NCBI RefSeq assembly: GCF_001663775.1
Contig: NZ_KV467168.1
Coordinates: 472,420-536,419 of the forward strand
Direction: 5' to 3'
Source: Arthrobacter sp. B6
Lineage (GTDB): Bacteria > Actinomycetota > Actinomycetes > Actinomycetales > Micrococcaceae
DNA length: 64,000 bases
The notes below the pieces were generated by a model. It saw only the letters and a list, made by a program, of their open reading frames with translations. It was not told the DNA's origin and searched no databases. The translations under genes were made by a program, and so were the position numbers. Below are positions 16,935 to 61,492 of this stretch, in pieces. The stretch's first letter is position 1; every line of letters begins with the position of its first letter.

Positions 16935-17687
16935 TTATCGAGCGGTATAGCCGCCGTCAATTGTAAACTGCGATCCCGTTATGAAGGAGGCCTTATCGGA
17001 GAATAGGAACAAAGCCATCTCAGCGATTTCAGCAGCTGTTCCGAGTCGGCCTATGGGATGTTTGGCGACAATGTTCGAGTAGCTTTTTTCAGGCAGTTTC
17101 TCCAGTAGCGGAGTGTCGATGTAGCCGGGATGAATCGAATTTACCCGCACGCCCTGATCCGCGTACCCCAGCGCAGCAGCCTTGGTTAGACCCGTCAATC
17201 CATGCTTTGCAGCGACGTAAGGTGCTGCCAAAGGATCGCCGACCAAGCCCAAAACTGAAGACGTATTGACAATCGAACCGCCCCCCGCAGCGATTATCGC
17301 TGGAATCTCATAACGCATGGCGTAGAACGCCGCATGTAAGTTGACTTCCATTACACGCGTGTAGTCGTTGACATCAGTATCAGCGAGGAGACTGAGTGGT
17401 CCACCGATGCCGGCATTATTAAACGCCAGGTGGAGGCCACCAAATTCTGATGATGCGGTCTCGACGGCTCTCTTCATGTCTTCCGGATTGGCCACATCGG
17501 CCCGAAAAGCGATGGCTCTGCCCCCAAGGCTTGAAGCTGCGGTAGAGACTGAGGATGCGGCCTCTTCGTTCAGATCGACGACAAGGATTGAGGCCCCTTC
17601 TGCCGCCATCTTCAGGACAACGGCTTCACCGATGCCCGATCCTCCCCCGGTTACAAGGAGGGTTTTTCCGTTGAATTCCTGGCCCAT
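16935..17687 (-). CDS. SDR family oxidoreductase
   Basis: Short-chain dehydrogenase of 250 aa: TGGGSGIG cofactor motif, VVDLNEE (NAD-type acidic residue), NNAG, NTSSVLG with the catalytic Ser, YVAAKHG and the C-terminal TIDGG. Start at ATG 17687 is preferred over 17714 because GGGAGAAAG lies 6 nt upstream. Separated from the OYE-type gene by 142 bp on the same strand. Probably oxidises a cyclic or secondary alcohol in the same pathway as the downstream-regulated genes of this region (inference). Confidence 0.87.
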   Translation of the reverse strand: MGQEFNGKTLLVTGGGSGIGEAVVLKMAAEGASILVVDLNEEAASSVSTAASSLGGRAIAFRADVANPEDMKRAVETASSEFGGLHLAFNNAGIGGPLSLLADTDVNDYTRVMEVNLHAAFYAMRYEIPAIIAAGGGSIVNTSSVLGLVGDPLAAPYVAAKHGLTGLTKAAALGYADQGVRVNSIHPGYIDTPLLEKLPEKSYSNIVAKHPIGRLGTAAEIAEMALFLFSDKASFITGSQFTIDGGYTAR

Positions 17688-17829
17688 GTTCGACTTTCTC
17701 CCTTGATTACTCAATCAGCAGATTCTGGACTTCTCCCCGATCTAATCGGACTGTTTAGTTCCTAGCTCCTACACGTGAATACGGGCAGGAGGCTGGTCCA
17801 GTTGTTTGGTTCGTGTTCCGCAGGGTGGG

Positions 17830-19863
17830 TCATTTGATGAGGCGCGCTGCTTTTTCTGCAGCGAATACGGCCTCGTCAACGTCGCCGGGAGCGTCGCAGT
17901 CGCCGATGGCTTGGGTGGGGATGCCGGTTTGGGCGAGTGCCCGGGTCAGTTCATCGTTTTGTTGCCGCATCAGGGCCAGTACGACGGAATCGACTTCGGC
18001 TTTCCGGCTTTCACCGCCGTAGACGGAGTTGATGGTGACCGATCCGGGGGAGACTTCTGATAGGTAGGACGACGCTGTAACACGAACACCGGCTTGTGCG
18101 GCGCGCGAGACCACCCAAGGTGCCTCCACTGATGCGTAGAGATTGGCTCCGATGTGACTTCGTGGTGTGACCAACTCCACCTGGTGGCCGCGTTCTGCTA
18201 GGAGGGTGGCGATTCCAAGCGCTGTGTAGTCGCCTCTGTCTTCCATCACCACGACGCGCTTCCCGACGAGTGCAGGGTTTTCCAGCACTGATATCGGATC
18301 CAGAACGGTATTGTCGGATGCGCCGCCAATGCCGGAGAGCTGGAATGGCAGAAGGCTTGAATAGCCGGAATGATCAAAACGGGCACCGGTTGCGACGATG
18401 ACGTGATCTGGTTTCAGGTCCGAAATAAGCTCTGGAGTGGCATCTACGCCCAGCCGCACGTCGACCCCGAGTCGGTACGCGGCAGCCGTCAGGTCATCTG
18501 TCAGGGTCGCCCATTGTGCGCGCCCTGGCAGTACACGCATGTGGCGGAATTGCCCGCCGAGCTCTCCCTGTCGTTCCAGCAGGGTTACTCTGTGGCCTCG
18601 CTCAGCCGCGATAACCGCTGCTTTCAAGCCAGCCGGTCCCCCGCCGACGATTACAACGAAACGTGAGGAAGCCGCCTGCCCATCAGGCCACTCGCCTTCA
18701 CGGCCCACGTGGGGATTGACCGAACAAGCGAGGTACTTATCGGTCGACGCACGCTTCCAGCACGTGTTGGATCCAATGCAGTGTCTGATTTCAGCCGCAC
18801 GGCCCTCCTGTGCTTTTTTGACCAGATCGGGGTCAGCGATATGAGCCCGCGCCATGGCGACCATGTCTGCAGAGCCGCTGGCCAGCACCGCTGCTGCCAC
18901 CTCAACAGTACGGATTGCGCCGGCGACCAGCACTGGGATTGAGTCTCCGACGATCGCCTTCGCGCGCGCGGAATTGTCAATCCGGTTGGCCACGAGCCCA
19001 CTCGAGGACGGCGGAATCATATGGTGCATCGTGTGGTAGTTACCGCCACTCACACTGACGTAATCGAAGAGCTCGCTCCCACTGATTTCCCGCAGGAGCT
19101 CATCAGAGACATCGGGAGTGAGGCCGGCCTCCCCCAGATATTCGTCATATGACAGACGGATACCCAGGGCAAAGTCACGACCAGCATGCCGTCTGACGGA
19201 CTGTGCGATTTCGATAGCAAACCGAGCGCGGTTTTCCACTGAGCCCCCGTACCGATCCTCACGCCGATTGGTCAACGGGGACAAGAACTGGCAAACGAGG
19301 TATCCGTGGCCGGCACTGAGCTCTACTCCATCGAATCCCCCGCTTTTCGCGTTGGCTGCTGCACGCCCGTAGAGTTCGACGATCTCGGCGATCTCCGCCT
19401 CGGTCAGAGCGTGGGCTGTCCGACCAAGAGTCGGCGACACGAGCGCCGATGCGGACACAGGGGTGCTCCAGTTGAGGTCAATGGAGTTATCAGCGTGGTA
19501 ACCGCCGTGGTAGAGCTGAGTAAAAATCCTCGCGCCATGTTTCTGAACACGCCGCGTAAGGTCACGAGCAAGCGGGATATTACGCTCATCGAAGAGGTGA
19601 ATCCCTGAGGGCCCCGCCGATCGCGGATCTACCGCGGCCGCCATGGTCACAAGAAGTCCGGCTCCGCCTTCCGCCCTGCGCTCGAGGTACCGTGCATATC
19701 TTTCTGAAATGAGGCCCCCGCCACTGTCGCGGGTGTAAGACGTTCCATGAGCCGGCAACAGCACCCGGTTCTTAATCTCCAGCCCGCCGATCATGATGGG
19801 TTGCCACAACATCTCCAGGTCCGAAATGCCCGCCCCGACAGCCTCACGATCGATCGTTCTCAT
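17830..19863 (-). CDS. Old-yellow-enzyme/FAD oxidoreductase (2,4-dienoyl-CoA reductase or TMADH type)
   Basis: Two-part flavoprotein of 677 aa. The N-terminal TIM barrel binds FMN and shows KNRVLLPAHGTSY, SAGHGYLVCQFLSP and NRREDRYGGS; the C-terminal half binds FAD/NAD with VVIVGGGPAGL. Between them the cluster motif reads CIGSNTC, then a further Cys in LACSVNP: relative to trimethylamine dehydrogenase (C-x2-C-x2-C) the second Cys is Ser. The start at 19863 has GGAG 7 nt upstream. Relatives reduce enoyl-CoAs or enones or demethylate amines; the substrate is unknown. A TetR-type palindrome sits in its promoter. Confidence 0.87.
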   Translation of the reverse strand: MRTIDREAVGAGISDLEMLWQPIMIGGLEIKNRVLLPAHGTSYTRDSGGGLISERYARYLERRAEGGAGLLVTMAAAVDPRSAGPSGIHLFDERNIPLARDLTRRVQKHGARIFTQLYHGGYHADNSIDLNWSTPVSASALVSPTLGRTAHALTEAEIAEIVELYGRAAANAKSGGFDGVELSAGHGYLVCQFLSPLTNRREDRYGGSVENRARFAIEIAQSVRRHAGRDFALGIRLSYDEYLGEAGLTPDVSDELLREISGSELFDYVSVSGGNYHTMHHMIPPSSSGLVANRIDNSARAKAIVGDSIPVLVAGAIRTVEVAAAVLASGSADMVAMARAHIADPDLVKKAQEGRAAEIRHCIGSNTCWKRASTDKYLACSVNPHVGREGEWPDGQAASSRFVVIVGGGPAGLKAAVIAAERGHRVTLLERQGELGGQFRHMRVLPGRAQWATLTDDLTAAAYRLGVDVRLGVDATPELISDLKPDHVIVATGARFDHSGYSSLLPFQLSGIGGASDNTVLDPISVLENPALVGKRVVVMEDRGDYTALGIATLLAERGHQVELVTPRSHIGANLYASVEAPWVVSRAAQAGVRVTASSYLSEVSPGSVTINSVYGGESRKAEVDSVVLALMRQQNDELTRALAQTGIPTQAIGDCDAPGDVDEAVFAAEKAARLIK

Positions 19864-19962
19864 GTGATCTCCAATTGATTTCCAACGTCCCTCAGCCCTG
19901 CTAGCAACAGGGAGGCCTGCCGGGTGTGTGGTGAGACACACTACGACGTAGCGACTGAAGGC

Positions 19963-19986
19963 TATCGAGCGCTATGAAATAAGTCA
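19963..19986 (-). promoter_or_regulatory. Promoter with TATCGAGCGCTA operator
   Basis: On the minus strand TTGACT (19986-19981) and TAGCCT are spaced 17 bp. The spacer holds the 12-bp site 19963-19974, TATCGAGCGCTA, one base from the perfect palindrome found upstream of the ABC/hydantoinase unit and the BVMO gene. It is about 100 bp upstream of the OYE-type start. Confidence 0.55.
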
Positions 19987-20136
19987 ACTTCCTGCCTTGT
20001 CTTGTGAAACCCGAGTAGACCAATTAGTTGCCTCAGTTGAGCCCTCCTCTTAGGGGCGTGGTTCTCTGCAGCGGCAACGGAAGGGGGCTCTGCACGTTTT
20101 CATTGGGCTAACGGTGATGCACTGGAAGGCTGGGAC

Positions 20137-20508
20137 GATAAGAAGGCCTCGTCTTACAAGACCTCGGATCGGGCAGTGAAGTCCCGGATCTTGAATGAGC
20201 TAGTGGACCTGACCGGGTGCCAACGCGGTTACGTCCGGGCGATTCTGCGGGGCGCCTTGGTCCTGAAAGTTGTCCGGCGCAGGCCGGGCCACATCCGGAA
20301 TACGGAGCTGATCTCCTGCCCCCGTTGGTCAGGTGCTGGGCGTGCTGCGCGCCCCTGAAAGCAGGCTGCTGGCCCGATGCTTCCGGTCCTTGTGCCGATG
20401 CTGCGCCGGGAGAAAGAGCTCGCGATCAGCGACGGACAGGCTGATTTGCTGGCGCGCATGAGCGCGGCGCCGATCGACCGCAAACTAGCTTTTCAAATGA
20501 GGCAATGA
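20137..20508 (+). pseudogene. Fragment of DDE-integrase-type transposase (N-terminal part)
   Basis: One frame gives SYKTSDRAVKSRILNELVDL then ALVLKVVR; after a frameshift another gives PVLVPMLRREKELAISDG then ADLLARMSAAPIDRKLA, closing at TGA 20506-20508. This is the N-terminal region of integrase-core transposases, and the catalytic domain is missing. A fragment of the middle part of the same family lies at 31200-31480. Confidence 0.6.
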
Positions 20509-20560
20509 ATCGCCCTTCCCGGAGGTATTTCCTGGCGCAGCGTCGATTCGAGCAACCAAA

Positions 20561-20599
20561 ACCGCTGCCGGCACCCAGGTGAAGGGTGTCGGCAGCGGT
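20561..20599 (-). terminator. Strong hairpin terminator of the hydantoinase unit
   Basis: ACCGCTGCCGGCACCC (20561-20576) pairs with GGGTGTCGGCAGCGGT (20584-20599), a 16-bp stem with one G-U pair and a 7-nt loop. It lies 46 bp past the hyuB stop, and TTTGGTTGCT follows in the direction of transcription. Confidence 0.7.
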
Positions 20600-20644
20600 A
20601 TGGAGGCATTCCCTGCCGGAACTACGGCGCAGCTGGAGCCGTCC

Positions 20645-22753
20645 TCACATCCCCGCAGTGACCCATCGGTCAGGCAATGATGCGAAGGTGCGAGGTTCTC
20701 CCATAGGAATTACTTCGGAGTGAAGTAGGCGTCCAGATTTGGGATCCAGATATCCTCGCCGCTGGACAGAGTCGCCGGCGGATTCAAGGATGACGGGGCA
20801 ACCAGCGGTCCAGTGCTGTGGTGCCTTTGCGAGCACTGCTCCCGTGTCGATTGCCACAGCGAACATTCCCCTTTGTTCGACGCCAGGTGCGATAGGGAGC
20901 CCCGGGACGTCAAGATCCATGGAGGCATCGAGAGCCACTGGTTCGTCTGTAGGTAGTGACGCCCGCCGAAGACGCTCAGCACCGATTTGCGTCCGAGTCG
21001 ACATCGTCGTCTCGAGATCCCCGACGGCTACGCCGTAAATCTCACGGGCTTCTGATTCGGTGAGCAGTCCCTGACGGACGTCTTCTTCGACCAGTTCAAC
21101 GCTCCGGTCAAGGGGGTCGCCCCAGGCCGCACCGCTCCCTCCCCAGGAACGGAACTCCTCGCCCGGTTTGACCTCAAATTGCTGGGCAGTGTGTTTGAGC
21201 TCAGTCTCCGTGCCGTCATGATGACCGACAGCGATTCGTGTACGGGGACCTTCCAATCCGCCGGCTGAACCGTCGCACGGAAGGAGATCGTGCTGTCCCA
21301 CGGAAGTTCCGAACAGAGAGGTGGACCCGATCGGTTCCCACGTTGCCTGTCCACCGATGCCACCGCGCTGAGCTCCGTGCGCGAAACGCACATCGCGGCG
21401 GCGGTGGTGGTAACGGACGGGGTACCACGCCTCTGTACTCTCCACATCGGCTTGCTCCCAGAGGGTCTGCTTGCCTACCGTTTCCCAGTAGTAGTCCATT
21501 CCATCCCGATCGGGCGTGGCGCCGGAGCCTCTGAGGAGAGTGTCCCCTGCCAGCCACACGAAGAACTCTCCGGCGCGGTTCTCTCCACTAAACATGGTCA
21601 GCGCCTGTTCGGAATGGGGTGGTACTACGGAGAGGAATTTGCTCACGTAACTTCCCGGCGACGCCACCGCAGCGGCGAGTAGGCACCGGAGGGCAGCCTC
21701 AACGGCATCCATGGCGGAGAGGAGATGGTTCGCGGCAGTCGGTGCGGGCGGTCGACTGTCGAGGATAGAACCCTCCGAGCAGATAACCTCGAAGGAGTCT
21801 AGGTAACCCTGATTATGTGGCAGGTCTCCGAGCAAGTAGTTGCCGAGATACATGCTGATCATGCTCTTAACCACGTGCTGCTTGGAATTGAGAAAACTTT
21901 TCACCTGTGGTGCGGCCCCGGTGAAGTCGAAAGTCAGCAATGCATCCTCAACGCGGAGGGAGCATGGGATTCGGTGGAACGAACCGTTCCACTCAGACCA
22001 CGTCGTGTTGGAATACGTCCCCTCGGCCAGTTCTGCGATGCGTCCGCGTACGGCGAGTTCGGTCCGCCTGTTCAGTTCTGCTATGCCGTAGAGAAACCGC
22101 TGGAGGCCCGTGGACTCGATAAGCTCTTTCAGACGCTCGCTGCCCACGTTCACTCCGGAAACCAGTGCGCGAAGATCCATTTCGACCAGTTTTGCCATGC
22201 GCACGTTGTTCATAAAGATCGACCATACGTCCACTTGCTCAACGCCGGCGCGCACCAAATGCACGGGCGGGAATCGGAGCGCTTCTTGATAGCACTCGGT
22301 GGCATCTGGTGAAAGCGAGCCGGGGACCATTCCGCCCATGTCCATCAGGTGAGCATCGTTGGCCAGCCAGGCCGAAAGCTCACCTTCGACGAAGACGGGT
22401 CGGAGCACGATGACGTCCTGTGGCTGCAGACCGCCAGCGCCGTGGGGGTCATTCGCCAGGAATACGTCTCCCTCAGAGATATCGCTCCGAACCTTCAATA
22501 TGCCGCGAACTGCGTTAGTTGCCTCGTTGAATTGCATGGTGATCTGCCCACCGCCCACGATGAGGTTTCCCCGTGCGTCGAGCATGGCGCAGCTGTAGTC
22601 GCCGCTCTCAACGATGATGGGGCTGACTGCGGTGCGTTGGATGATGAGAGCAGCCTCATCCACTAGAGCCTGAAGCCGATGACGCAGGACTTCGACTTCA
22701 ATGATGTTCATCGAGTCGGCGACTGTTGCAGTGGTTGCGTCGATGAGAGTCAT
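20645..22753 (-). CDS. hyuB: Hydantoinase B / oxoprolinase family subunit
   Basis: Protein of 702 aa of the HyuB family, which covers N-methylhydantoinase B, the 5-oxoprolinase C-terminal half, acetone or acetophenone carboxylase subunits and caprolactamase CapB. Typical elements are SGDYSCAMLDARGNLIVGG near residue 50, FLANDPHGAGG, DAHLMDMGG and a late GGIGGQATWEP. Length is above the usual 520-600 aa, with an extended C-terminus. ATG overlaps the hyuA stop by 4 bp. With HyuA it should form an ATP-dependent enzyme that opens an amide ring or carboxylates a ketone; which one is not decided by sequence alone. Confidence 0.87.
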   Translation of the reverse strand: MTLIDATTATVADSMNIIEVEVLRHRLQALVDEAALIIQRTAVSPIIVESGDYSCAMLDARGNLIVGGGQITMQFNEATNAVRGILKVRSDISEGDVFLANDPHGAGGLQPQDVIVLRPVFVEGELSAWLANDAHLMDMGGMVPGSLSPDATECYQEALRFPPVHLVRAGVEQVDVWSIFMNNVRMAKLVEMDLRALVSGVNVGSERLKELIESTGLQRFLYGIAELNRRTELAVRGRIAELAEGTYSNTTWSEWNGSFHRIPCSLRVEDALLTFDFTGAAPQVKSFLNSKQHVVKSMISMYLGNYLLGDLPHNQGYLDSFEVICSEGSILDSRPPAPTAANHLLSAMDAVEAALRCLLAAAVASPGSYVSKFLSVVPPHSEQALTMFSGENRAGEFFVWLAGDTLLRGSGATPDRDGMDYYWETVGKQTLWEQADVESTEAWYPVRYHHRRRDVRFAHGAQRGGIGGQATWEPIGSTSLFGTSVGQHDLLPCDGSAGGLEGPRTRIAVGHHDGTETELKHTAQQFEVKPGEEFRSWGGSGAAWGDPLDRSVELVEEDVRQGLLTESEAREIYGVAVGDLETTMSTRTQIGAERLRRASLPTDEPVALDASMDLDVPGLPIAPGVEQRGMFAVAIDTGAVLAKAPQHWTAGCPVILESAGDSVQRRGYLDPKSGRLLHSEVIPMGEPRTFASLPDRWVTAGM

Positions 22754-24801
22754 GAGATTGCCTCCATAAGTAGTGAATGACGTGAGTCACGCGTCGCTCG
22801 ATAACCTTCCGGTACCACAATCGTGGTATCGCCCTGATCGACGAGGGCGGGCCCGAGGAAGCTGTGCTGTGGGAGTAAATCCTCGGCTTGATAGGTCTTG
22901 ACCTTTGTGCGTTCGGTCCCCTCGAGAAGGACCATCCTGAAACTGTTCACAGGCGGTTCTGAGCTCGCGCCGTAGTTTTTGTCTTCAAGAACCGCCGCAC
23001 TCGGTATCTCTCCAAAACCGACGGCTCTAACCGAGGCCACCTCCACCGGAGTTCCAAGAGCGACCGCACTCCTTCCATATCGCTGAGAATACTGCGCGAT
23101 GAACGTTTCTTTGAGGGTCTCAAAGTCAAGAGCATCCACATCGATGGGAATAGTAAGCTCGAACGCTTGGCGCTGGAACCTCATATCGGCCTCGTACATC
23201 ACGGATCGGTTATGTTCGGGCACGTTGGTGCGTGCCACGTCGCCGTCAACTTCAACCCCGAGCGACTTCAGCTGAGCCATGAGGGTTTCGACTTGGACCT
23301 TATCGACCGATTCGTTCACAGACAGGATGCGCTCGCTTCGAACGTCAACCGACGCAGCACCACCGGCCGACAGCACAGACGCTGCAAGCGGCACCAAAAC
23401 CGTAGGTAGACCAGCTATCGCGGCGAGTTCACCGGCAAAAAGCGGCCCTGCTCCGCCATATCCGAGGAACACGACGCTCGACGGATCCAGGCCCGATGAC
23501 GTTGCCAGAAGGCGCGCTGCCGTTCCCATCTGCTGGACGGCGATAGAGTGAATCCCCAACGCAACCTGTTCTGCATCAAGGCCAAGCTGCTCCCCCAGGG
23601 AACCACAAGCCCGAAGCGCAGCATTGACGTCGAGTGGCATCGCACCACCCAAAAACTTCAGTGGATCAATATATCCCAATACCAACATTGCATCGGTGAT
23701 CGTCGGCGCAACCCCGCCCCGCCCATAGCAAGCAGGCCCAGGGTAAGCACGCGCCGATTCAGGACCAACGCGAAGCAGCCCTCTTTCATCAACCCAGGCG
23801 ATGGAACCCCCGCCAGCGCCGATCGACTCGATGTCCACAGTTGATTGCGCCACAATTGCACCGTGCAGGGACTTGCGTTGCGTACGCTCTGGCCGCCCCT
23901 CTCGAATGAGCGCCACATCGAAACTAGTACCACCGGTGTCACCACAGATAACATTGCCAAACTCAGACTTAGAAGCGATCTCAGCAGCCCACATCACCCC
24001 AGCAGCCGGCCCTGACGCATTCAGACTGAACGGTGACCGGCGTACCTCATCCAGCGTCGTCAAGCCACCATTGGCTTGCAACAACATCATCGGAACAGCC
24101 AGACCCTCGTCTTCGAGATCCTCCGCTAGATCCGAGATCCCATCCAGCGCATGCCCACAATAAGCATTGAGAACGGCGACCATTGTGCGTTCATACTCTC
24201 GAATCGTCGGGTGCAAACCAGAACCAGAAAAAACCGGGATATTCGGGTGCCTCTCGCGCACGAGGGCTGCCAGTCGGTCCTCATGCACAGGGTTAGCAAA
24301 CGACCAAAGCAACGAGATCGCAATGGCCTCCACCGCTTGAACATTTACGAGATCGTCAATTGCTTCGATAGCCTGTGCCTCATTAAGAGGCTCAACCACG
24401 ACTCCGCCCTGCCCGATTCGTTCGCTCACTCCCAACGTGCAATGCCTCTCGACAGGTTGCCACGGCACCTCCAGCCACCCATCCACTGACGCGCGTCGGC
24501 CCCTGGCCATCGAAAGCACGTCCTCGAACCCTGCCGTTGTCAAGAGCCCCACTTTGCGGCCCTTCTGCACGGTGATGACATTGGTAACCGCTGTCGTACC
24601 TAACCCGAAACGGTCCACTCGCGAAAGCATCTCCGCCCGAGAAAGGCCGACCTGATCCGCAACAAGGGTGCATGCTTCCTTCACACCTCGACCAAACTCC
24701 TGCGGGTACGTCGACGCTTTACTACGCCAGCTCTGCTGGCCATCGCTGAGCATAATATCGGTAAAAGTACCTCCGACATCAACGCCAATAGTGAAACTCA
24801 C
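22750..24801 (-). CDS. hyuA: Hydantoinase A / oxoprolinase family ATP-binding subunit
   Basis: Protein of 683 aa with the actin-like ATPase start IGVDVGGTFTDIML, then GTTAVTNVI, ARGRRASVDGW, CGDTGGTSFDVALI and FLGYGGAGP, the standard landmarks of the HyuA/acetone carboxylase beta family. It phosphorylates or activates the substrate with ATP for the HyuB partner encoded directly downstream. Starts 61 bp after the truncated ABC ATPase gene. The neighbouring BVMO and enone-reductase-type genes make a cyclic ketone or lactam pathway plausible (inference). Confidence 0.87.
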   Translation of the reverse strand: MSFTIGVDVGGTFTDIMLSDGQQSWRSKASTYPQEFGRGVKEACTLVADQVGLSRAEMLSRVDRFGLGTTAVTNVITVQKGRKVGLLTTAGFEDVLSMARGRRASVDGWLEVPWQPVERHCTLGVSERIGQGGVVVEPLNEAQAIEAIDDLVNVQAVEAIAISLLWSFANPVHEDRLAALVRERHPNIPVFSGSGLHPTIREYERTMVAVLNAYCGHALDGISDLAEDLEDEGLAVPMMLLQANGGLTTLDEVRRSPFSLNASGPAAGVMWAAEIASKSEFGNVICGDTGGTSFDVALIREGRPERTQRKSLHGAIVAQSTVDIESIGAGGGSIAWVDERGLLRVGPESARAYPGPACYGRGGVAPTITDAMLVLGYIDPLKFLGGAMPLDVNAALRACGSLGEQLGLDAEQVALGIHSIAVQQMGTAARLLATSSGLDPSSVVFLGYGGAGPLFAGELAAIAGLPTVLVPLAASVLSAGGAASVDVRSERILSVNESVDKVQVETLMAQLKSLGVEVDGDVARTNVPEHNRSVMYEADMRFQRQAFELTIPIDVDALDFETLKETFIAQYSQRYGRSAVALGTPVEVASVRAVGFGEIPSAAVLEDKNYGASSEPPVNSFRMVLLEGTERTKVKTYQAEDLLPQHSFLGPALVDQGDTTIVVPEGYRATRDSRHSLLMEAIS

Positions 24802-24862
24802 TGCAACTCCTTTGTGTCAAATGAAAGTTCGAAAAGGGCTTTGTGCACGTCATTGGATTCAC

Positions 24863-25159
24863 CTAACACACGCTCACGCCGTCAACGAACAAAATCGCTC
24901 GGGGGTTGGCCTCGTGGAACCCCGCGAGGACCTTGATAAGCGTTGATTTGCCCGACCCGGTCTGGCCCATGAGCGCGTGGACCTCACCCGGCAGAGCGGT
25001 GAGTGCGACATCATGCAGCACGTGAGCGCTGCCGAATGTCTTCGACACGTCTAGCATCTGAAGTCGCGGTGGTTTGACGCGTTCATGTCTCTCCTTTGAG
25101 GCTTCTCGCATGTTAGAGAGCGGCGATTCGCCAGCGGGAGGCGTCCTTGTAAGAGGCAT
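24863..25159 (-). pseudogene. Truncated ABC transporter ATPase (sugar/RbsA type)
   Basis: A 98-codon frame reads [19 protein letters not shown] then [26 protein letters not shown] (Walker A) and soon stops with VSVC. The Q-loop, signature, Walker B and the whole second half are absent, so it cannot be an active ATPase. The matching permease and binding protein genes are not in the window. It is first in the hydantoinase transcription unit, with a palindrome 32 bp upstream of its start. Confidence 0.7.
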
Positions 25160-25190
25160 CGTCGACTCAGTCGCTTGAGCAACGATGCTC

Positions 25191-25202
25191 TAGCGTTCGC
25201 TA
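25191..25202. promoter_or_regulatory. Palindromic operator TAGCGTTCGCTA
   Basis: Perfect TAGCG-NN-CGCTA inverted repeat 32 bp upstream of the ABC fragment that leads into hyuAB. A TTGACT -35-like box lies at 25230-25225 on the minus strand. Same site type as at 19963 and 31161. Confidence 0.6.
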
Positions 25203-25479
25203 TGTTTCCACAGACGCGAACGGCAGTCAACCATTAAAGGAAATCCTTTGGAAATTCTGCAAAAGTGCGCCTGCAGCATTTACTCGTCGGGGCGGCGGGC
25301 ATATGTTGACAATCGCGCTCCCCGGTGGAGCGGGGATGCCTCAGCGCGTCTCGTTCGCCTCTTGCACCCGACCAAACTCTGGGAATTCCATGCTTTTCAC
25401 TCCATGACCTTTCTCTCCAACAGAAGAGCCCCAAACGCAGTGTCCGAGGCGTGGTCTGCCCATCTGGCGGCGATTCCTC
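25203..25479. other. No recognisable gene
   Basis: Contains the -35 region of the hydantoinase unit and otherwise no supported feature. Confidence 0.4.
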
Positions 25480-25745
25480 CGCGCACCTTCGGATCTCATC
25501 GGGGACTACAGCTACCCAAACATCTCCAGCTCCTCCGGGAATCAGGCTCCAGCCGCTTCCGGCAAGAGGGCAAGGAACGCATCTTCGACGTCTCCAACCT
25601 GCCGAACCGAACCGCGGCCGCGCCGTCGCCCTCGCCTCCGGCGCTCCCGCCACGCTGGTCCGCACGATCCCCTGGTACATCGGACCCCACAAGGGCGCCC
25701 GTCGCAACGTCAGGCTGGGAACTGAGCAGTCCACAGTTGGGGTCA
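25480..25745 (+). pseudogene. C-terminal fragment of TraG/TraM-recognition conjugation protein
   Basis: DLIGDYSYPNISSSSGNQAP in one frame, then FDVSNLPN and, after a shift, GRAVALASGAPATLVRTIPW with GPHKGARRNVR. This resembles the C-terminal end of actinobacterial TraG/VirD4-like coupling proteins. Only about 85 codons remain, frameshifted. It suggests that the region once belonged to a conjugative element. Confidence 0.5.
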
Positions 25746-26189
25746 ATCCGGTTATCCACGGCCGGGATCGGGGAGTAATTGGGGGTAGCTCCCTCAGCAG
25801 CAGTAGCGGGAACACGCGCGACAAGCCGTAGATCACAGACAGGCCGGGCGAAATTGTGCCTTACTACTCCACCGGATGTGGATTCGTCCTAGAAATCAGT
25901 TAGGAACGGGGTATTGTGCCTGTAGATAAAAGTGCGTGAACAACATGCTTGTAATACATCATCTTGGTCTTCCTAAGAGCCGTTGCACCCCACCGGCCAT
26001 GGGAGTATGGGAATGCCCACTGACTTCCCGTGAACGCGAGAACCCCCTCCCGCAGCGGCGTTCAGGGGTCGGCTCCTGGATGAAGCTGAAAGCGGGGCAA
26101 CCGTCAGGTCTGGAAAGCGACGGGGTCATTCCGCCCGGTTGCGTTCATTTGCATCAGATCTAGGCGTCATACAATGGTTTATCAATGGC
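25746..26189. other. Region without recognised gene
   Basis: About 440 bp between the conjugation-gene fragment and the transposase fragment; no supported coding sequence. Confidence 0.4.
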
Positions 26190-26570
26190 CGGGTTTGAAC
26201 AGTGGAATATCCGAGTGCCCATCCCTCGTGCAAGGTCAGCCCGGGTTGGAGGAGCCTGCACAGGTCAACTCCCACGATCCGCAGTTTGCAGCCAGGCGTT
26301 GTCCCTACTGATGCCGAGGTGGGGAAGGCGGCGGTTGCCGCAGGTGAGCCAAGCAAAAAACCGCTCGACCATCGGCCAGTGCATGGGTAGTCGTTTTGGA
26401 AGGCCGGGCCCGCGGCACGTTGGCGGTGTTCGACCGCAACGCCTCGTGTTCGTGAAGAGCGTCCCCGTGGTGAACATGAGACCCACCACGGCCCGCGCCG
26501 CCAACGAAGCGACCTCCCCGCCCAAGGCACTGGTGCGCGGGCCGAGATCAGCACCCCAGCCCGAGACCAC
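26190..26570 (-). pseudogene. C-terminal fragment of IS5-like transposase
   Basis: The minus strand reads HWPMVERFFAWLTCGNRRLP then NAWLQT, and in another frame LRIVGVDLCRLLQPGLTL with a short tail. The VERxxAWLxxxNRR element with NAWL and LxRLLxxGLTL is the C-terminal DDE region of IS5-type transposases. Frameshifted, with the N-terminal half missing. It abuts the TetR gene stop. Confidence 0.55.
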
Positions 26571-26571
26571 G

Positions 26572-27213
26572 TCAGCCAGCGCCGTTGTGCGCGACCAAAC
26601 GAAGAGCATTTCGCGCATACTCTTCGGCAATTTCCCCGGCGCTTAAGCGACCGTCTTCGTTGTACCAGTCTGGGATGCTCGTCAACATGCCGAGGATGAG
26701 CCGCGAGGTGAATCGGATGTCCTCGACGTCAAAGATGTCCTCGGCGACGCCGGCTTCCAATAGCTCCACTAAGATTTCCTCAACAATTCTGCGCTTAGCG
26801 ACGTACCGTGCACGGAAGTCGGAGCCGAGAAAACGAAATTCGTCATGGAGTCGCGCCAGGTCATGCCGGAGAGTGTTATGCAAGGCGACGGCGGAAACAA
26901 ACTTGGAAAATCGAGCCTTGGTATCGCCACCAGCTTGTTCCAGACCGCCTTGAATGCGCGCTAGGAGATCATCCATCGCTATTTCGAGAAGGGCGAAAAG
27001 TATACCCTCCTTGTTGCCATAGTGGTAGTACAACGATGGCATGGTTAAGCCGACGCGCGACGCAATCCCGCGCACGGTCGTTCCGTGGTATCCGTGCTCC
27101 TTGAGTTCGGTAAGGGCGGCGGCGAGAATTGGTGAGAGTGGCAACTGGTCAGACACTCCTACACGGTCGGACTCGTCCGCTGTTTGAAGCGCGGGGACGT
27201 TCACAGTAGGCAT
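26572..27213 (-). CDS. TetR family regulator
   Basis: Protein of 213 aa. The helix-turn-helix spans about residues 28-75: SPILAAALTELKEHGYHGTT, IASRVGLTMPSLYYHYGNKEGI. The long C-terminal ligand domain contains LHNTLRHDLARLHDEFRFLG, a pattern seen in KstR2-like acyl-CoA-responsive repressors (family inference). It lies between the hydantoinase and BVMO genes and is the natural candidate to bind the TAGCG-NN-CGCTA sites at 19963, 25191 and 31161. The protein at 60531-61154 is a close paralogue. Confidence 0.88.
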   Translation of the reverse strand: MPTVNVPALQTADESDRVGVSDQLPLSPILAAALTELKEHGYHGTTVRGIASRVGLTMPSLYYHYGNKEGILFALLEIAMDDLLARIQGGLEQAGGDTKARFSKFVSAVALHNTLRHDLARLHDEFRFLGSDFRARYVAKRRIVEEILVELLEAGVAEDIFDVEDIRFTSRLILGMLTSIPDWYNEDGRLSAGEIAEEYARNALRLVAHNGAG

Positions 27214-27251
27214 GGCTTGATCCCGTTCGGAGGTCTAGTGGTTTGTGTCTT

Positions 27252-27272
27252 GCGCTAGCTAAATAATAGCGC
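27252..27272. promoter_or_regulatory. Inverted repeat upstream of TetR gene
   Basis: GCGCTA and TAGCGC are separated by 9 bp, 39 bp upstream of the TetR start; TATTAT on the minus strand inside it could be a -10 box. It uses the same CGCTA/TAGCG half-sites as the other candidate operators but with different spacing. Confidence 0.45.
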
Positions 27273-27749
27273 GAAACGCCGCGGTCGGGATATGTTTACG
27301 GCTTCTCGGAGCGCGCCCCGGACAGCATATTGATTGACCGTAAAGGATGCAGCGTATTCCCGCCAGATAGTCCCCCATTTACAAGATACGCCCCAGGAGC
27401 GTGGGCGGTAGGTGGCTCAGTGGGTTGACGTATTGTGATCTGAGCTGCTGCGCGTCGCCGGCTGCCGTACTGGTTCTCTGGTTTGCGGTGAGGGCGCGCG
27501 AACTGGCCAAGTTTGTCGGAGGTCTCGGACTCTTTGGCGGGGTAGTAGGGAGCTCCGTGGCTGAGACACCCCTCTCTTAGTTCCTGTTGTAGCGAGGAAC
27601 CTGGTGTGTTCCAGTTCGGGACAAATTGCTGCATGTCCACTGCGGTGTTATTCAATTCGGTCGAGACGATGACCTATGGCCTGCGTCAACCGGAGCCCTG
27701 GGCGGCGCTACAGCAATTGTGGTAGGAGGCGTCGGCGGTCTTCATGATA
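27273..27749. other. Region without recognised gene
   Basis: A 119-codon open frame exists on the minus strand (27296-27655) but has no RBS, no family similarity I recognise and a mixed composition; I do not call it a gene. Confidence 0.35.
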
Positions 27750-29165
27750 CGGGAGTCAGGGTCCGTGAAGGTTCGTGACCGGGCGCTGAGCGGCGGGTCT
27801 CGCTGCATGCATGGGGAAGGAGAGGCGGGCGACGCCGGCAAGCCTGATGGTCCGGGGGACCCGCGAAACACAATGGACAATGATCTCTTGAAAAAGTTTC
27901 GGCGTTCTTCGCCAAAGAACAACGGTGATTTTCCACGCGGCTGTGAAGAGCCGGTAGTGCCAGCGTTTGATGTCCCGGGCTTTGGCATGGTGACCGTCCA
28001 GGAGTGCGGCGAGTTGGATCCAGGAGACGAGATTAGAGGCCAGTGCGGCGACGTTTGCCCAGGCCTGGTTGGCGGCGAAATCAAAGAAGGGCAGCTTGCC
28101 CAGTCAGTGTTCTTCAGGGTCTTGATCCGGTTCTCGCATCGGCCCCGGCGCGGTGCCGGGCATCGCAGGCTTCGTGCCAGCGCGGCGAGGTGGTCAGAAG
28201 AGCAGTGATCCGATGCCCATCAGCATGGAGCAGGGTCGGCTGCGCGCCGGGGTGCAGCGACCCGGCGCGGAGGAAAAGTTTGGTGCCTGGCGGGTAAATC
28301 GGTGAGCGGAAATGACGTCGGTGACGTTGATGACCTAAGCATCGGTCCGGTCGTTCCCTGGCTGGTCCAGGGGCAGGCTGCCAGAACTCCTTGTCGCTAA
28401 TCCAGTCGCGCATGTTGCTTTGCGAACGGGAGTGTTTAGCTGGTGGAAAACTGCACTCCGAAGCTGTGCAGATGCCAGAGGGATCTCCGTGAGGCCCCGG
28501 CGCTGTCGTTGTGGACCAGGATCTTCTCCCTGGCCAGGGCCCCGGTGTCGTTGAAGAGGCTCTCGGGGAGTTGGGCTGCTGCGGTGGAAGACGCAGATGT
28601 GGTCCTCGGCGCTGTTCGGTCCGGCTTGCCGGGCCGCAGCGAGCAGGCGAGCATTTCCCTAGAACCCTTATCGGTGCCGTCATCGACCCTGGCGATGAAC
28701 GGGGGAACCCGTAGCCGCCCTTGTAGGTTCCGGCGACGTCTTCCTTATCCGACGAGCGGGTCCGCGGCTGGGGCGGCCAGGGCCGGTTCCGGTTCCCTAC
28801 TGCATGCCAGGCCCGGGTGCGGGTTTCAAAGCCGTAGCTGAACGAGTTCCGGGTAGGTGACGGTGCCTTCGACGAACCAGGACAAGGTCGCGTTCGAGGG
28901 CAGTTGAACGAAGACCCCCTGGTGAGGGCCGCAGGATGTCGAGATCCGAGGCGCGTTCGCCGGCGGCGAGCATCGCGGCCAGGGATCCAACCAGCCGGCC
29001 AGACCGGTGCCGCGCGCCGGAGGGAACAAACTGGCCGATTCTGTCTTCGCAGAGACTGCCCGGGTCCATGAAGCCGGCGAGGACCGAGGCTCCGGCGCGG
29101 GAGATCAGCAACTGGCTGGTGAAACTGACCGGCAGGGACGGGAACATGCGACTATATTTTTGCAT
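27750..29165 (-). pseudogene. Degenerate IS1380-family transposase
   Basis: Fragments of one transposase follow in order on the minus strand but in different frames: SFTSQLLISRAGASVLAGFM near the ATG at 29165, GRLVGSLAAMLAAGERASDL with DILRPSPGGL, FVEGTVTYPELVQLR, MRDWISDKEFWQPA, and towards the end FAANQAWANVAALASNLVSW with IQLAAL. These are the landmarks of IS1380 transposases. At least four shifts make it inactive. It separates the TetR gene from the BVMO gene it may control. Confidence 0.7.
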
Positions 29166-29170
29166 TGAAA

Positions 29171-29233
29171 GGGTGCTCCTTCGCAGGCAAATAATTGTCT
29201 CGACAACAACTATTTTCCCAGCTCAGAGCACCC
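29171..29233. repeat. Inverted repeat next to IS1380 remnant
   Basis: GGGTGCTC (29171-29178) and GAGCACCC (29226-29233) enclose a second imperfect pair, AAATAATTGT and ACAACTATTT. It could be a hairpin in the transposase leader or part of the IS end. Confidence 0.4.
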
Positions 29234-29436
29234 CTCCCCCTGATTAACTTGCCGTCCCGACGGACCCGCCATGAAAACTCCGGGCTAATAGGAAGGGACT
29301 GAAATCCTGAGGGTGACGCCCATCGGTACCAACGAGACGTCACCCGTTCCATCCCCTTGCGGGGTTCAAAGCTGAAGCGGCATGGCGCCCAAGCTTCTCT
29401 GCCGGCTGTGACACCTGCAAAGTTGAGCACTGAATG

Positions 29437-31098
29437 CTAGGAGAATTCGAATCCTTCGTAGTCTGCTTCCCGAATCTTATTCAGCTTAGCAATGTAAGTA
29501 TCTAGGCCTCCGGCAAAGAAGCGGTAGGCAACCGTCTTTGCCCCAGGGACATTGGCACCTGATCTCCAGTCCTTAGCGTTTTCAAACACAGTACCGGCTA
29601 TGCGGTCTGCCACTTCTTGGGTCCACGCTTCGGCGGCCTCGCTTGTTGTTTCCAGGCGCGCATGGTCCTCTCGGAGGGCCTTCACTAAAAGTTCCGTCAC
29701 GAAATGGATCTGGGGTTCAGCGCAGCGAGGCACGTTACCACCCGGGCTGTGCGGCCCGTATCCAAACAGCAAGTTGGGGAATCCGGGAGTCTGGATTCCG
29801 TGATTCGTGAGCAGTCCGTGTTCCCACGCTTCCTTCAGTGTAGTGTCACCGGCGCGGATATCGATCTGGTTGTAAGGTCCTGTGATGGCGTCAAAGCCCG
29901 TGGCGAAAATAATGACATCGAACTCGAACTCTTGCTCCGTGGTTTTGATGCCCCGCTCGGTGATCTCCACCATGGGCGTCTTCAGGAGGTCAACCAAAGC
30001 CACATTGTCCTTGTTGAAAACTTCATAATATCCATCTTCGAAAGGGGGGCGCTTCTCGCCGAAGCGATGGTCCTTCGGGATCAGAGTTTCCGCGGTTTCT
30101 GGATCCTTGACCCGCTCACGAATCGTATCTGCAATAAACCCGCAAAACTCGTCGTTAAGTTCAGGAGAGGTTCGAAACTCGCTGTAGTTGGCGTAAAACT
30201 TCGCAAACCCTTGTAGCGCCCAGATCTTTTCGAAGTGGGCGCGGCGCTGTTCGGGAGTGTGCTCCTGCCACGGAGGCAGGGCTTCCAGATCATAGCTGAG
30301 GAAGCCTGCGAAAGAATTGCTGGAACTGTGGTGAAGTTCCTTCATCGACGTCTTCAGCTTGGCCTGTTCTTCGGGCGTGATCGGCCGGTTGCGCAATGGC
30401 GAACACCAGTTAGCCGTGCGCTGAAAAACAGTCATCTCGGCGACTTCATCGGCTTTGCCAATTGCCGTCACGACCTGCACGCCACTAGCGCCGACACCGA
30501 CGACGGCCACTCGCTTGTTCTTCAGGTCCACGCCATCGGGCCACTCACCCGTGTGGTAGGCCTCCCCGGCGAACTTCTCGCGACCTGGAACCGGTGGATA
30601 CAAGGGCACCGACAGAAGTCCCAGAGTGGCCACCACAAACCGAGCACGGATGGTCTCACCTGTATTGGTTACAACTTCCCAGCGATTGTTTTCTTGATCA
30701 AAAGTTGCACTCTCGACCCGGGTGTTGAACGTCATGAGTTGTCGCAGATCGGTCTTATCGACTACGTAATTAACGTAGCGCTCGATCTCCTCATAGCCAG
30801 CGTAATGTTCGCTCCACTCCCACCCCTCGTAGATTTCCTTCGAGAAGAAATATCCGTAGATATAGCTGTCCGAATCAAAACGTGACCCAGGATACCGATT
30901 GAAATGCCAAGTCCCCCCCGGACCCGCGCCCGCATCCACGGACCGGACATTAAGACCTTCTTCACGAAGTTTGTAGAGCTGATACACACCATTAACCCCA
31001 GCGCCGATGACGAGTGCATCCAGAACATCCGAGTCAATGTCGGCTGACGTAGCTGCGTGAGGTGAATTTAAAACTGTTGCATTGGTTGAGTGCCCCAT
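29437..31098 (-). CDS. Baeyer-Villiger monooxygenase (flavin-containing)
   Basis: Type I BVMO of 553 aa that would convert a ketone to an ester or lactone using NADPH and O2. It has the FAD motif VIGAGVNGVY near residue 32, the diagnostic fingerprint FAGEAYHTGEWPD, the NADPH motif VVGVGASGVQ and the late ATGFDAITG. Length and order match cyclohexanone and phenylacetone monooxygenases. A short 5' leader separates it from a promoter with the operator TAGCGAGCGCTA 63 bp upstream. Most likely acts on the same ring compound as the OYE-type and hydantoinase-type enzymes (inference). Confidence 0.9.
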   Translation of the reverse strand: MGHSTNATVLNSPHAATSADIDSDVLDALVIGAGVNGVYQLYKLREEGLNVRSVDAGAGPGGTWHFNRYPGSRFDSDSYIYGYFFSKEIYEGWEWSEHYAGYEEIERYVNYVVDKTDLRQLMTFNTRVESATFDQENNRWEVVTNTGETIRARFVVATLGLLSVPLYPPVPGREKFAGEAYHTGEWPDGVDLKNKRVAVVGVGASGVQVVTAIGKADEVAEMTVFQRTANWCSPLRNRPITPEEQAKLKTSMKELHHSSSNSFAGFLSYDLEALPPWQEHTPEQRRAHFEKIWALQGFAKFYANYSEFRTSPELNDEFCGFIADTIRERVKDPETAETLIPKDHRFGEKRPPFEDGYYEVFNKDNVALVDLLKTPMVEITERGIKTTEQEFEFDVIIFATGFDAITGPYNQIDIRAGDTTLKEAWEHGLLTNHGIQTPGFPNLLFGYGPHSPGGNVPRCAEPQIHFVTELLVKALREDHARLETTSEAAEAWTQEVADRIAGTVFENAKDWRSGANVPGAKTVAYRFFAGGLDTYIAKLNKIREADYEGFEFS

Positions 31099-31154
31099 TG
31101 CTCTCCATTCGAATGATAATCCTGCAAAAGGTCTGCGGTTACAACGGCCAGACT

Positions 31155-31178
31155 AGCCCTTAGCGAGCGCTACGTCAA
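31155..31178 (-). promoter_or_regulatory. BVMO promoter with operator TAGCGAGCGCTA
   Basis: On the minus strand TTGACG is followed after 17 bp by TAGTCT, and the perfect palindrome at 31161-31172 fills most of the spacer. A repressor bound here would block RNA polymerase. Confidence 0.6.
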
Positions 31179-50534: not shown

Positions 50535-50615
50535 CAATGCGCCTCCCTTGTGTTGAATCGCCCTTTTATGATGTCGGAATTGCGGAGCGGGGCGAAGTCC
50601 CCTACCGTCGTAATA

Positions 50616-53132: not shown

Positions 53133-53162
53133 TTGACCTATTGAGCGATAGCTATATATAAT
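53133..53162 (+). promoter_or_regulatory. Promoter of the TRAP transporter operon
   Basis: TTGACC (53133-53138) and TATAAT (53157-53162) with an 18-bp spacer, 87 bp upstream of the dctP start; a near-consensus housekeeping sigma promoter. A TAGCTATA palindrome overlaps the -10 side. Confidence 0.6.
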
Positions 53163-53248: not shown

Positions 53249-54496
53249 ATGCTCTATGCCTCAACCAACTCATCGCCCGGCATTGGCAAACGCATCATTG
53301 CAGCGGCCGTGGTCGCCGCTAGTGCAATCACGCTAGCAGCGTGCACGGGCTCGGGGACTACAAATGCCGACGGCCCCACCCTGAAAGACATGGAGCCGGT
53401 CACGCTGACGTACAGCGAAGCCTTCGGGGAAGGTTCGCTGTCGCAGAAGGCGACGGCGAACTTCATGGAGGCCGTCACCGAACGCACGGAGGGCAAGGTC
53501 ACGTTCGATGTATATCTCTCCGGATCGCTGCACCCCGTGACAGAAGGCCTGGCGGCGGTTCAGTCCGGCCTGACCGACATGACGAACTACATTCCGGGCT
53601 ACTTCGGCGACTCGCTCCCCGGGGGCCAGTGGGCAAACGCGCTTGCGACTCTGCAGTGGGGCGGCTACCCGCAGGACATGCTCAGCGGAACTGCCGCTAG
53701 CCAGGAGTTTACCCTCAGCACGCCGGAGTTAAGCGCCGAACTCGAGAAATGGAACGCCGTTCCCCTCGGTTCCTATACGGGGCCGTCGTTGTTCCTGCTG
53801 TGCACGAAGCCGATCGAGACACTGGCGGATGCCCAGGGCGTGCAGACCCGCACCGCGGGCTGGCCGTTCTCAGACGACATCGAGGCGCTGGGCATGACGA
53901 ACGTATTCACCCCCGACCTCGAAATCTTCGAAGCCCTGCAGCGCGGCGTCATCGACTGCGCGGTCACCGCACCGTCGGTCGCTATGGGTGCCGGCCTATG
54001 GGACGTTGCGACTTATGTGCACCCCCTCCCGCTCCCGAATTCGGCGGGTTCCGGCTACATGGTCAGCAAAGATGTTTGGGAAGCGTTCCCTGAGGAGGTC
54101 CGGACGATCTTCCGTGAGGAAGCGACCGGTCTGGCGGGAGACTACCTCCGCGGCTACGCGGAGGTGAACGCCCGATGGGCCACCGAGAGCGAGGCGCACG
54201 GGGTCACCTGGGTCGACACAAGTGAGCTGCTTCCGACCATCGAAAAAGCTCACCAAGCGCGCATCGAGAACATCGCAGGCCTGGCTCCCGACACAATAAA
54301 GGACCCGGAATCAGTGATCGAGAGGTACAAGGCCACGGTAGACGAGTGGGACGCTTACCTCAATGATGACCTGGGGTACGTTCTCAATAAAGAGCCCAAC
54401 GGCAAGGAACTAAAGCAGGCCTACCTGGACGCCGCCGAATCGTTTTCTTGGGATGACTACCGCGAGCGGCTGGCTGCGGCGGCGGTAGGTGGATAA
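53249..54496 (+). CDS. dctP: TRAP transporter solute-binding lipoprotein
   Basis: DctP-type extracytoplasmic binding protein of 415 aa. An N-terminal signal ends in the lipobox LAAC (AITLAACTGSG), so it should be anchored to the outer face of the membrane. The mature part has the DctP core, including GVQTRTAGWPFSDDIEALGM with the Arg that usually binds the substrate carboxylate. RBS AAGGAAG. First gene of dctPQM; the substrate is expected to be an organic acid. Confidence 0.9.
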   Translation: MLYASTNSSPGIGKRIIAAAVVAASAITLAACTGSGTTNADGPTLKDMEPVTLTYSEAFGEGSLSQKATANFMEAVTERTEGKVTFDVYLSGSLHPVTEGLAAVQSGLTDMTNYIPGYFGDSLPGGQWANALATLQWGGYPQDMLSGTAASQEFTLSTPELSAELEKWNAVPLGSYTGPSLFLLCTKPIETLADAQGVQTRTAGWPFSDDIEALGMTNVFTPDLEIFEALQRGVIDCAVTAPSVAMGAGLWDVATYVHPLPLPNSAGSGYMVSKDVWEAFPEEVRTIFREEATGLAGDYLRGYAEVNARWATESEAHGVTWVDTSELLPTIEKAHQARIENIAGLAPDTIKDPESVIERYKATVDEWDAYLNDDLGYVLNKEPNGKELKQAYLDAAESFSWDDYRERLAAAAVGG

Positions 54497-54499
54497 ATA

Positions 54500-55057
54500 A
54501 TGACGACCGCGAGCCTGCCCCCCAGCTCATCCCCGGCCTGGATCCGCATCATCGATCGCATCACGGTTGTAGCGGTGGGGGTCGCGGCCGGACTTGTCGC
54601 CCTGATGATGGTTCACGTGATCATCGATGTAACCGCCCGCAATCTCCTGAGTGCGCCACTGCCAGGAACCCTGGACGTCGTCGCGTACTTCTGGATGCCC
54701 GGGGTGTCCCTTCTGGCGCTTGGATACGCTCAGTTCCGGAACGAGCAGATACGTGTGACCCTTCTGCTCGAGGCGCTGGATAGCGTTTCCAAACGCCGAC
54801 TGGACGCACTGGTGGAGGTAATCACTTTGCTGATCGTTGCCTGGCTTTCGTTCGTCTCATTCGAGGCGCTGCTTGGCTCGATCGATCACGGGGAGCGGGC
54901 GAATGGGACCCGATGGGTGCCGTTCTGGCCGGGCAGGCTCGTAGTCGTTGTTTCCTTCGTCATACTCGCGTTGGCTTCCGTCGCGAACCTATACAAACTT
55001 GGCAAGCGCATCGACACGACAGAACAGATTCCCCCTGAGGAGAACGTACTGGTATGA
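54500..55057 (+). CDS. dctQ: TRAP transporter small permease
   Basis: Membrane protein of 185 aa with four hydrophobic helices, and the DctQ pattern HVIIDVTARNLLSAPLPGTL near residue 40. Begins 3 bp after dctP and overlaps dctM by 4 bp (ATGA). It connects the binding protein with the large permease. Confidence 0.87.
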   Translation: MTTASLPPSSSPAWIRIIDRITVVAVGVAAGLVALMMVHVIIDVTARNLLSAPLPGTLDVVAYFWMPGVSLLALGYAQFRNEQIRVTLLLEALDSVSKRRLDALVEVITLLIVAWLSFVSFEALLGSIDHGERANGTRWVPFWPGRLVVVVSFVILALASVANLYKLGKRIDTTEQIPPEENVLV

Positions 55058-56541: not shown

Positions 56542-56565
56542 TCACTTCTCGAAAGAAGCAAGCTA

Positions 56566-61154: not shown

Positions 61155-61492
61155 GTCGATCAGGTCCTTTTCTTATCGACCGGCTAAAACCCCCAACTAC
61201 TGATCTAACACCCCTGTGGCTTATCCAGCGCCACGTCAGGCGTCTCGAATGAGCAGCTGGGGGTCGCGGCTGAGGCTCCGCCGTGCGCTAGCGTTCGTTC
61301 GATATAGTATACATCGATTGTAGGGCACCCTATTTCCTAGGGCGCACGCAACCGGTCGTCTAGGGCGAAGAAATACCAGCTATGGAAGCCCATGATTCGA
61401 GCATAGAGGACTACGCTGCGCTCGACCCCGACATCCAACCGTCAGTTCCGGGATCACGAGGGCCGTCCGCCCGCCGTGGGGCCTCCTCAAGT
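61155..61492. promoter_or_regulatory. Promoter region of TetR gene
   Basis: Minus-strand TATACT (near 61311) can serve as -10, and CGCTAGCG at 61286-61293 with a TAGCGTTCG stretch follows downstream of it, resembling the operator set at 19963, 25191 and 31161 but with one altered half. No gene in this interval. Confidence 0.4.

Follow-up and report, generated by a model that had tools for sequence, protein, structure and literature searches.

KstR2, the TetR repressor of cholesterol catabolism in mycobacteria and Rhodococcus, appears to be the nearest described analogue of the system reported here. In the excerpted account (PMC3068626), it represses scattered acyl-CoA-type catabolic units in actinomycetes, and a short palindrome with a 2-bp centre is found in several promoters near the regulator gene. 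We find a similar arrangement on a catabolic island of Arthrobacter sp. B6, part of which lies in a window of 64,000 nucleotides (C1:472420-536419, where C1 is contig NZ_KV467168.1) taken from a genome of 4,663,437 bases in 8 contigs. Here the palindrome TAKCG-AR-CGMTA is probably (at a probability of roughly 0.78, judged from sequence comparison) the operator of a TetR subfamily represented by two paralogues, TetR 1 and TetR 2, which would control about eight units on the island.

The resemblance to KstR2 does not extend to the operator. As given in the excerpt, the KstR2 operator is AnCAAGnnCTTGnT, with the half-site AnCAAG (PMC3068626), and the island operator TAKCG-AR-CGMTA does not fit it; because the half-site differs, membership of the KstR2 system is excluded on that description despite the same 2-bp-centre geometry. 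TetR 1 has 12 PDB matches, KstR2 structures (E 7e-12) among them, but the nearest solved structures are 3vpr and 3dcf (~6e-18). Furthermore, the proposed island targets include an Old Yellow Enzyme (OYE)-type flavoenzyme, a Baeyer-Villiger monooxygenase (BVMO), a hydantoinase and BioY.

Two other described systems share single features with the island. BkaR, the repressor of branched-chain keto-acid genes in mycobacteria, binds as a TetR dimer to a palindrome in the promoters of its targets, according to the part of the paper available (PMC3920632). However, that text gives a 16-bp core of GTTA(N)T(N4)A(N)TAAC and other genes, and BkaR is autoregulatory with a site in its own promoter (PMC3920632), whereas the TetR promoters described here carry no canonical site. 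The bioYMN genes of Corynebacterium glutamicum resemble one island unit in that BioY has an ABC ATPase behind it, but the island BioY promoter holds an operator of the catabolic type. The C. glutamicum operon is said to be biotin-inducible. A survey of mycobacterial TetR proteins presents its motifs as logos (PMC4482099). In a text search of the open-access literature, which does not reach motifs drawn as logos, the operator 12-mers returned only unrelated matches and the consensus forms none, and no description of this TetR subfamily was found. Most subscription papers lie outside such a search, and we therefore regard the regulator and operator as a new pair of a known TetR type only provisionally.

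Clustering and promoter placement of the palindrome

The initial annotation of this DNA had reported palindromes before three catabolic genes or units, and these are present at 19963 (TATCGAGCGCTA), 25191 (TAGCGTTCGCTA) and 31161 (TAGCGAGCGCTA) as the only exact matches to TAKCGNNCGCTA in the window (Table 1). With up to one mismatch, the window holds 10 strand-matches where 4.19 are expected, a number reached in 3 of 100 shuffles, which is suggestive. Because these window-only statistics were too weak to decide the matter, the motif was counted across the genome, with the reversed pattern as a control.

Genome-wide there are nine exact sites of TAKCGNNCGMTA (TAKCG-NN-CGMTA), eight of which fall inside 72 kb (C1:492382-564141), the three window sites corresponding to 492382, 497610 and 503580 on the contig. 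All eight match the consensus TAKCGARCGMTA on one or the other strand. The ninth, TAGCGCCCGATA at 2290791, departs from this consensus and lies within an open reading frame (ORF) read as leuC. The annotation had named equal frequency of the motif in coding regions as a finding that would speak against a regulon; in the genome-wide count, all eight island sites lie outside called genes, which cover 74% of C1:490000-568000, and the sole stray exact match is in coding DNA. As site 560347 is a duplicate of the window site at 19963, there are seven independent sites, and their flanks differ. Four distinct sites fall in the 27.7 kb past the window (P ~2e-7 if sites were as frequent as the reversed pattern, with 8 per genome). 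The compact regulon first proposed is strongly supported, but it is larger than was suggested and extends ~28 kb beyond the window. The signal is one of clustering and promoter placement, not of abundance.

The sites also coincide with plausible promoters. Site 31161, upstream of the first BVMO gene (BVMO 1), directly follows TTGACG and lies wholly inside the 17-bp spacer before TAGTCT. In the OYE promoter, site 19963 takes up only the 3' part of the 17-bp spacer between TTGACT and TAGCCT and covers the first two bases of that -10 box. Site 25191 starts on the final base of AAACAT, a weak -10 box, and the next gene has its called start 32 bp away. The clearest case is site 564130, found in TTGACA-[TAGCGTTCGCTAACGAA]-TATGTT with 10 of 12 promoter bases. 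For each of the seven distinct sites, the best sigma-70-like promoter that overlaps it was scored; the mean is 8.14 of 12 bases, compared with 6.61 of 12 at random intergenic positions (n=2,000), and 1 of 20,000 resamples reached 8.14. Sites 492382, 503580, 553930 and 564130 lie in or overlap the spacer of the best-scoring promoter, and sites 497610, 538876 and 539652 lie at or just after its -10 box.

Table 1. Sites and genes of the island (window positions unless prefixed C1)
Feature	Position	Strand	Remark
Operator in OYE promoter, TATCGAGCGCTA	19963..19974		exact match; identical copy at C1:560347; outside called genes
Operator before truncated-ABC/hydantoinase unit	25191..25202		exact match
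Operator in BVMO 1 promoter	31161..31172		exact match; spacer TTGACG-N17-TAGTCT
Exact genome sites	C1: 492382, 497610, 503580, 538876, 539652, 553930, 560347, 564130, 2290791		
Probable weaker operator, TATTGAGCGATA	53139..53150 (C1:525558)		one mismatch; directly after TTGACC, TATAAT 18 bp on
TetR 1, proposed repressor, 213 aa	26572..27213	-	TetR_N + TetR_C_24
TetR 2, paralogue of TetR 1	60531..61154	-	TetR_N + TetR_C_24
Everted half-sites CGCTA...TAGCG before TetR 1	27253..27271	-	non-canonical; autoregulation unsure
TATCG-N6-CGCTA before TetR 2	61289..61304	-	non-canonical; autoregulation unsure
OYE-type flavoenzyme	17830..19941	-	Oxidored_FMN + Pyr_redox_2
Short-chain dehydrogenase (SDR) behind OYE gene of the window	16935..17714	-	probably on OYE transcript
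Truncated ABC ATPase, 98 aa	24863..25159	-	39 of 137 profile positions; directly behind operator 25191
Hydantoinase A-type subunit	22750..24801	-	Pfam/NCBIfam
Hydantoinase B-type subunit	20645..22753	-	Pfam/NCBIfam
BVMO 1	29437..31098	-	Pfam/NCBIfam and PDB match
Thiolase, last enzyme gene of enoyl-CoA hydratase (ECH)-CaiB-CoA ligase-thiolase run	61493..62674	-	site C1:538876 beyond window
CoA ligase, window portion	62671..64000	-	gene runs on to C1:536799
TRAP transporter DctP, DctQ, DctM and acetoacetate-decarboxylase-family gene	53249..57261	+	downstream of 53139 site

The TetR pair and its relatives in other actinomycetes

Both regulators carry a TetR_N domain above the curated cut-off (E 2.1e-15 for TetR 1 and 1.9e-14 for TetR 2) and a TetR_C_24 ligand domain (E 2.7e-24 and 5.5e-23). 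The two proteins are intact and 60% identical, with an identical recognition helix and diverged ligand domains. They are sisters (98/75) in an 82-row tree, where their neighbours are TetR proteins of Trujillonella endophytica and Nocardia aurantia (99/85). Neither reached the cut-off of an NCBIfam TetR equivalog (FadR, SACE_7040, RefZ and others), scoring at best 46.1 against 200 for TetR 1 and 44.1 against 180 for TetR 2. A further TetR gene at 49866-50537 looks unrelated.

Close relatives are rare near Arthrobacter: TetR 1 was found in its own genome only, both among 206 genomes of the genus (E<=1e-40) and among 297 of the order (E<=1e-36). Fifteen more distant loci in the family (34-39% identical, mostly with an SVPG-type recognition helix) held no exact site in 53,280 bases, a null result that proves little because only ~1.5 sites would be expected there at the density of the other loci. 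A named-genome scan with two TetR queries confirmed nothing, and one with six queries gave 303 relatives, the best 80 of which yielded 76 loci totalling 1,399,672 bases.

In these 76 loci the motif occurs exactly 40 times, compared with 4 times for the reversed pattern and a mean of 5.4 for 120 permuted palindromes, and 29 of the loci have at least one exact site. The enrichment is sharpest near the estimated TetR start (-400 to +30), where exact sites occur in 10 of 76 loci, compared with a mean of 0.2 loci for the permuted patterns and 1 of 76 for the reversed control; the next-best permuted pattern, which contains the motif itself, reaches 5 loci. With up to one mismatch, a site lies near the TetR start in 45 of 80 loci, or in 20 of 37 clusters when loci with similar upstream DNA are grouped (permutation mean 2.4). 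By a crude ORF caller, 25 of the 40 sites are outside called ORFs, where ~12% of the DNA lies, and 27 of the 40 have a called 5' end no more than 180 bp away. Rhodococcus, Nocardia and Streptomyces all have the palindrome close to TetR starts, and it is spread across the TetR tree. Its recurrence around these relatives supports the annotation's proposal that a TetR protein, here one of this subfamily, is the binder.

The neighbouring genes of the relatives also recall the island. A search that covered 396 genomes from the phylum found a TetR relative at E<=1e-37 in four genomes besides that of Arthrobacter sp. B6; in one of these (L045), an exact TAGCGAGCGCTA lies between the TetR relative and a divergent gene read as CaiB. 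Relatives of the island CaiB adjoin the site in L092, L105 and L115. Within the 29 site-bearing loci, which give context only for that subset, 20 have a relative of the island thiolase (19 at 62-66% identity, one at 44%) and 3 a relative of its CaiB (47-53%). In the Trujillonella locus (L048, TetR 60% identical), the site is followed by an SDR gene and an ECH gene 54% identical to that of the island; in Nocardia aurantia (L063, TetR 59%), 170 bp separate the site from a downstream gene read as an ABC-transporter binding protein. A Rhodococcus locus (L054) has two TetR-like genes of this kind (9926-10576 and 15462-16085, the second read by eye) in one acyl-CoA cluster, as on the island.

A proposed operator and its alternatives

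We propose that a dimer of the TetR 1/TetR 2 type would block RNA polymerase at about eight transcription units over 72-76 kb by binding the 5-2-5 palindrome, which lies either within the -35/-10 spacer or on or immediately behind the -10 box. These would comprise OYE (two identical copies), hydantoinase A/B, BVMO 1, the ECH-CaiB-CoA ligase-thiolase run, an amidohydrolase, a BioY importer and an esterase, with two TRAP transporters as probable further members. The mode of action would be ordinary TetR repression by a dimer. A pathway intermediate, most likely an acyl-CoA, would free the operator, so that the site-bearing breakdown genes are probably switched on together; a CoA thioester is suggested because the genes accompanying this TetR subfamily elsewhere handle acyl-CoAs. 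The substrate is probably an alicyclic or terpenoid ketone, which would suit the combination of OYE, BVMO, SDR, esterase, CoA ligase and thiolase.

Several observations weigh against this proposal. The canonical operator is absent from both TetR promoters; the half-sites that the annotation had noticed there are present, neither of them canonical (Table 1). Total abundance is at the control level (9 exact sites versus 8 for the reversed pattern), and 1 other genome of 198 in the genus also has 8 sites, scattered over megabases. One-mismatch matches number 98 genome-wide versus 267 for the control, i.e. the motif is rarer, and a looser genome-wide motif was rejected on this count. Among the relatives, 47 of 76 loci have no exact site, and in whole loci two permuted palindromes, KTCGANNTCGAM (101) and GTCKANNTMGAC (57), are commoner than the 40 of the motif. 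When exact palindromes near TetR starts were enumerated blindly, the motif did not come out first (3 clusters and 6 loci, the best having 4 clusters). On the island itself, site 564130 is 323 bp from its presumed target, the esterase gene, and no separate site accompanies a second BVMO gene (BVMO 2), the biotin carboxylase unit or other genes of the island.

The absence of a canonical operator from both TetR promoters and the many relatives' loci lacking an exact site could mean that another regulator binds the palindrome, and the island does offer IclR-type and second TetR-type (49866) regulators. We consider this unlikely, given the palindrome near TetR starts in three genera and across the TetR tree, and the near absence of the reversed control from such starts. 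It is more improbable still that the sites are copies of mobile or repeated elements, or chance matches with no regulatory role. The OYE copies and their site do form an exact duplication of 2,263 bp, and there are pieces of mobile elements, but the seven distinct sites differ in flanks and genes, overlap promoters, and share their palindrome with other genera.

The annotation had further argued for one inducer and hence one pathway, and this is unproven: both TetR paralogues are intact and share a recognition helix, and neither of their promoters has a canonical site. A real regulon might instead consist of two or more cross-talking modules, whose paralogous regulators respond to different inducers with overlapping recognition. 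The diverged ligand domains fit this, as do the site-less IclR-flanked carboxylase/thiolase/CoA-transferase unit and the TetR gene at 49866-50537. All eight sites, however, share the consensus TAKCGARCGMTA with no split into two types, and we hold the modular arrangement to be possible rather than probable.

If the palindrome is the operator of TetR 1 and TetR 2, it would indicate how the scattered genes of a catabolic island are to be grouped, a usual bottleneck in pathway assignment, and would give a testable operator for this TetR subfamily in Rhodococcus, Nocardia, Streptomyces, Frankia and others. More tentatively, TAKCG-NN-CGMTA may be the ancestral operator of an actinomycete TetR subfamily guarding acyl-CoA modules, several of which would have been fused here; local regulators would have decayed while operators were kept, the two paralogues would act in trans, and BioY would have been captured, so that biotin uptake would respond to the pathway and not to biotin status. 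Such merging of regulons would be concretely illustrated by a biotin importer placed under a catabolic operator and by relics of a regulator next to an operator that was retained.

Units, weaker sites and history of the island

Genes were named by Pfam and NCBIfam matches unless marked as read by eye. The called GTG start of OYE may be too far upstream. The nearest PDB chain to BVMO 1 is 6jdk, labelled as a Baeyer-Villiger monooxygenase, and that to BVMO 2 is OTEMO. Site 538876 precedes the ECH, CaiB, CoA ligase and thiolase genes, with the TetR 2 gene next after a 338-bp gap; the CaiB gene, which had no NCBIfam match at 1e-70, was recognised by eye and from its similarity to known CaiB genes. 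An Amidohydro_2 protein is encoded downstream of site 539652 and a beta-lactamase-family esterase downstream of site 564130. BVMO 2, on the opposite side of the latter, is transcribed towards that site and so is not obviously under it. Cut-offs for the mycofactocin-associated OYE 2, caprolactamase and acetophenone carboxylase equivalogs were not reached (532.7/793, 437/1000 and 303.1/1500 bits).

Site 553930, an exact match, precedes BioY in the stretch C1:552416-553871; an ABC ATPase follows, and then a 211-aa protein that presumably forms the membrane component of the ECF importer. Because a second BioY gene, 42% identical, sits elsewhere (contig C2), the island copy may serve this pathway alone, and the importer may supply the split biotin carboxylase at C1:542998-546473. 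That enzyme belongs to an IclR-flanked stretch (C1:542998-551340) with a thiolase, 3-oxoacid CoA-transferase subunits and an AMP-binding enzyme; it has no palindrome and is probably a separate module. The acetovanillone (Hpe) pathway, as far as its excerpted description goes, was considered as a candidate for the biotin carboxylase unit.

Sites with up to one mismatch number 14 in C1:490000-568060 versus 2 in the other 62 kb read. The site at 53139 suggests that the TRAP/acetoacetate-decarboxylase-family unit behind it is probably a regulon member. A second TRAP transporter has its divergent start between two further one-mismatch sites, 567905 and 567990; the former overlaps the called TTG start of its DctP gene, for which, by reading, a GTG downstream is the likelier start. 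A third TRAP transporter (C1:459499-462894) has no such one-mismatch site. Three of the six one-mismatch sites on the island are well inside genes. The one-mismatch sites 489355, 495720, 503195, 527900 and 579553, which fall inside genes, were taken as chance.

The 2,263-bp direct duplication lies at C1:490248-492510 (window 17829-20091) and C1:558213-560475, 68 kb apart, and holds the OYE gene with its operator, the second OYE copy being identical (C1:558214-560325). Beside the second operator are decayed TetR gene pieces on both strands (C1:560646-561031), with 27 residues 70% identical (E 1e-5) and 78 residues 31% identical with stops. An ORF at C1:538975-539640, with no Pfam match and one 16-residue TetR match (E 0.043), may weakly suggest a second decayed TetR gene. 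At least one local regulator would have been lost while its operator stayed. Relatives are scarce within the genus, which leaves no orthologous promoters there for comparison: ECH was found in 1 of 204 genomes (E<=1e-80) and OYE in 2 of 204 (E<=1e-130), the other one 37% identical. The site-bearing part of the window is 58-60% G+C, and the island carries an IS4/5-type transposase piece and an integrase piece. Together, the decayed TetR gene, the lack of close relatives in the genus, the G+C content and the mobile pieces fit an acquired and reshuffled island.

Plasmid searches with TetR, OYE, the amidohydrolase and hydantoinase A gave only matches below 60% identity; a Rhodococcus koreensis plasmid stretch has a hydantoinase A 50% identical. 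The best plasmid match overall is to Arthrobacter dokdonellae (89% over ~1.6 kb), in NAD(P) transhydrogenase genes. Left of the window lies an inverted duplication of ~1.85 kb (C1:454860-456708 and C1:466902-468749), one copy of which has a fumarylacetoacetate-hydrolase-family gene.

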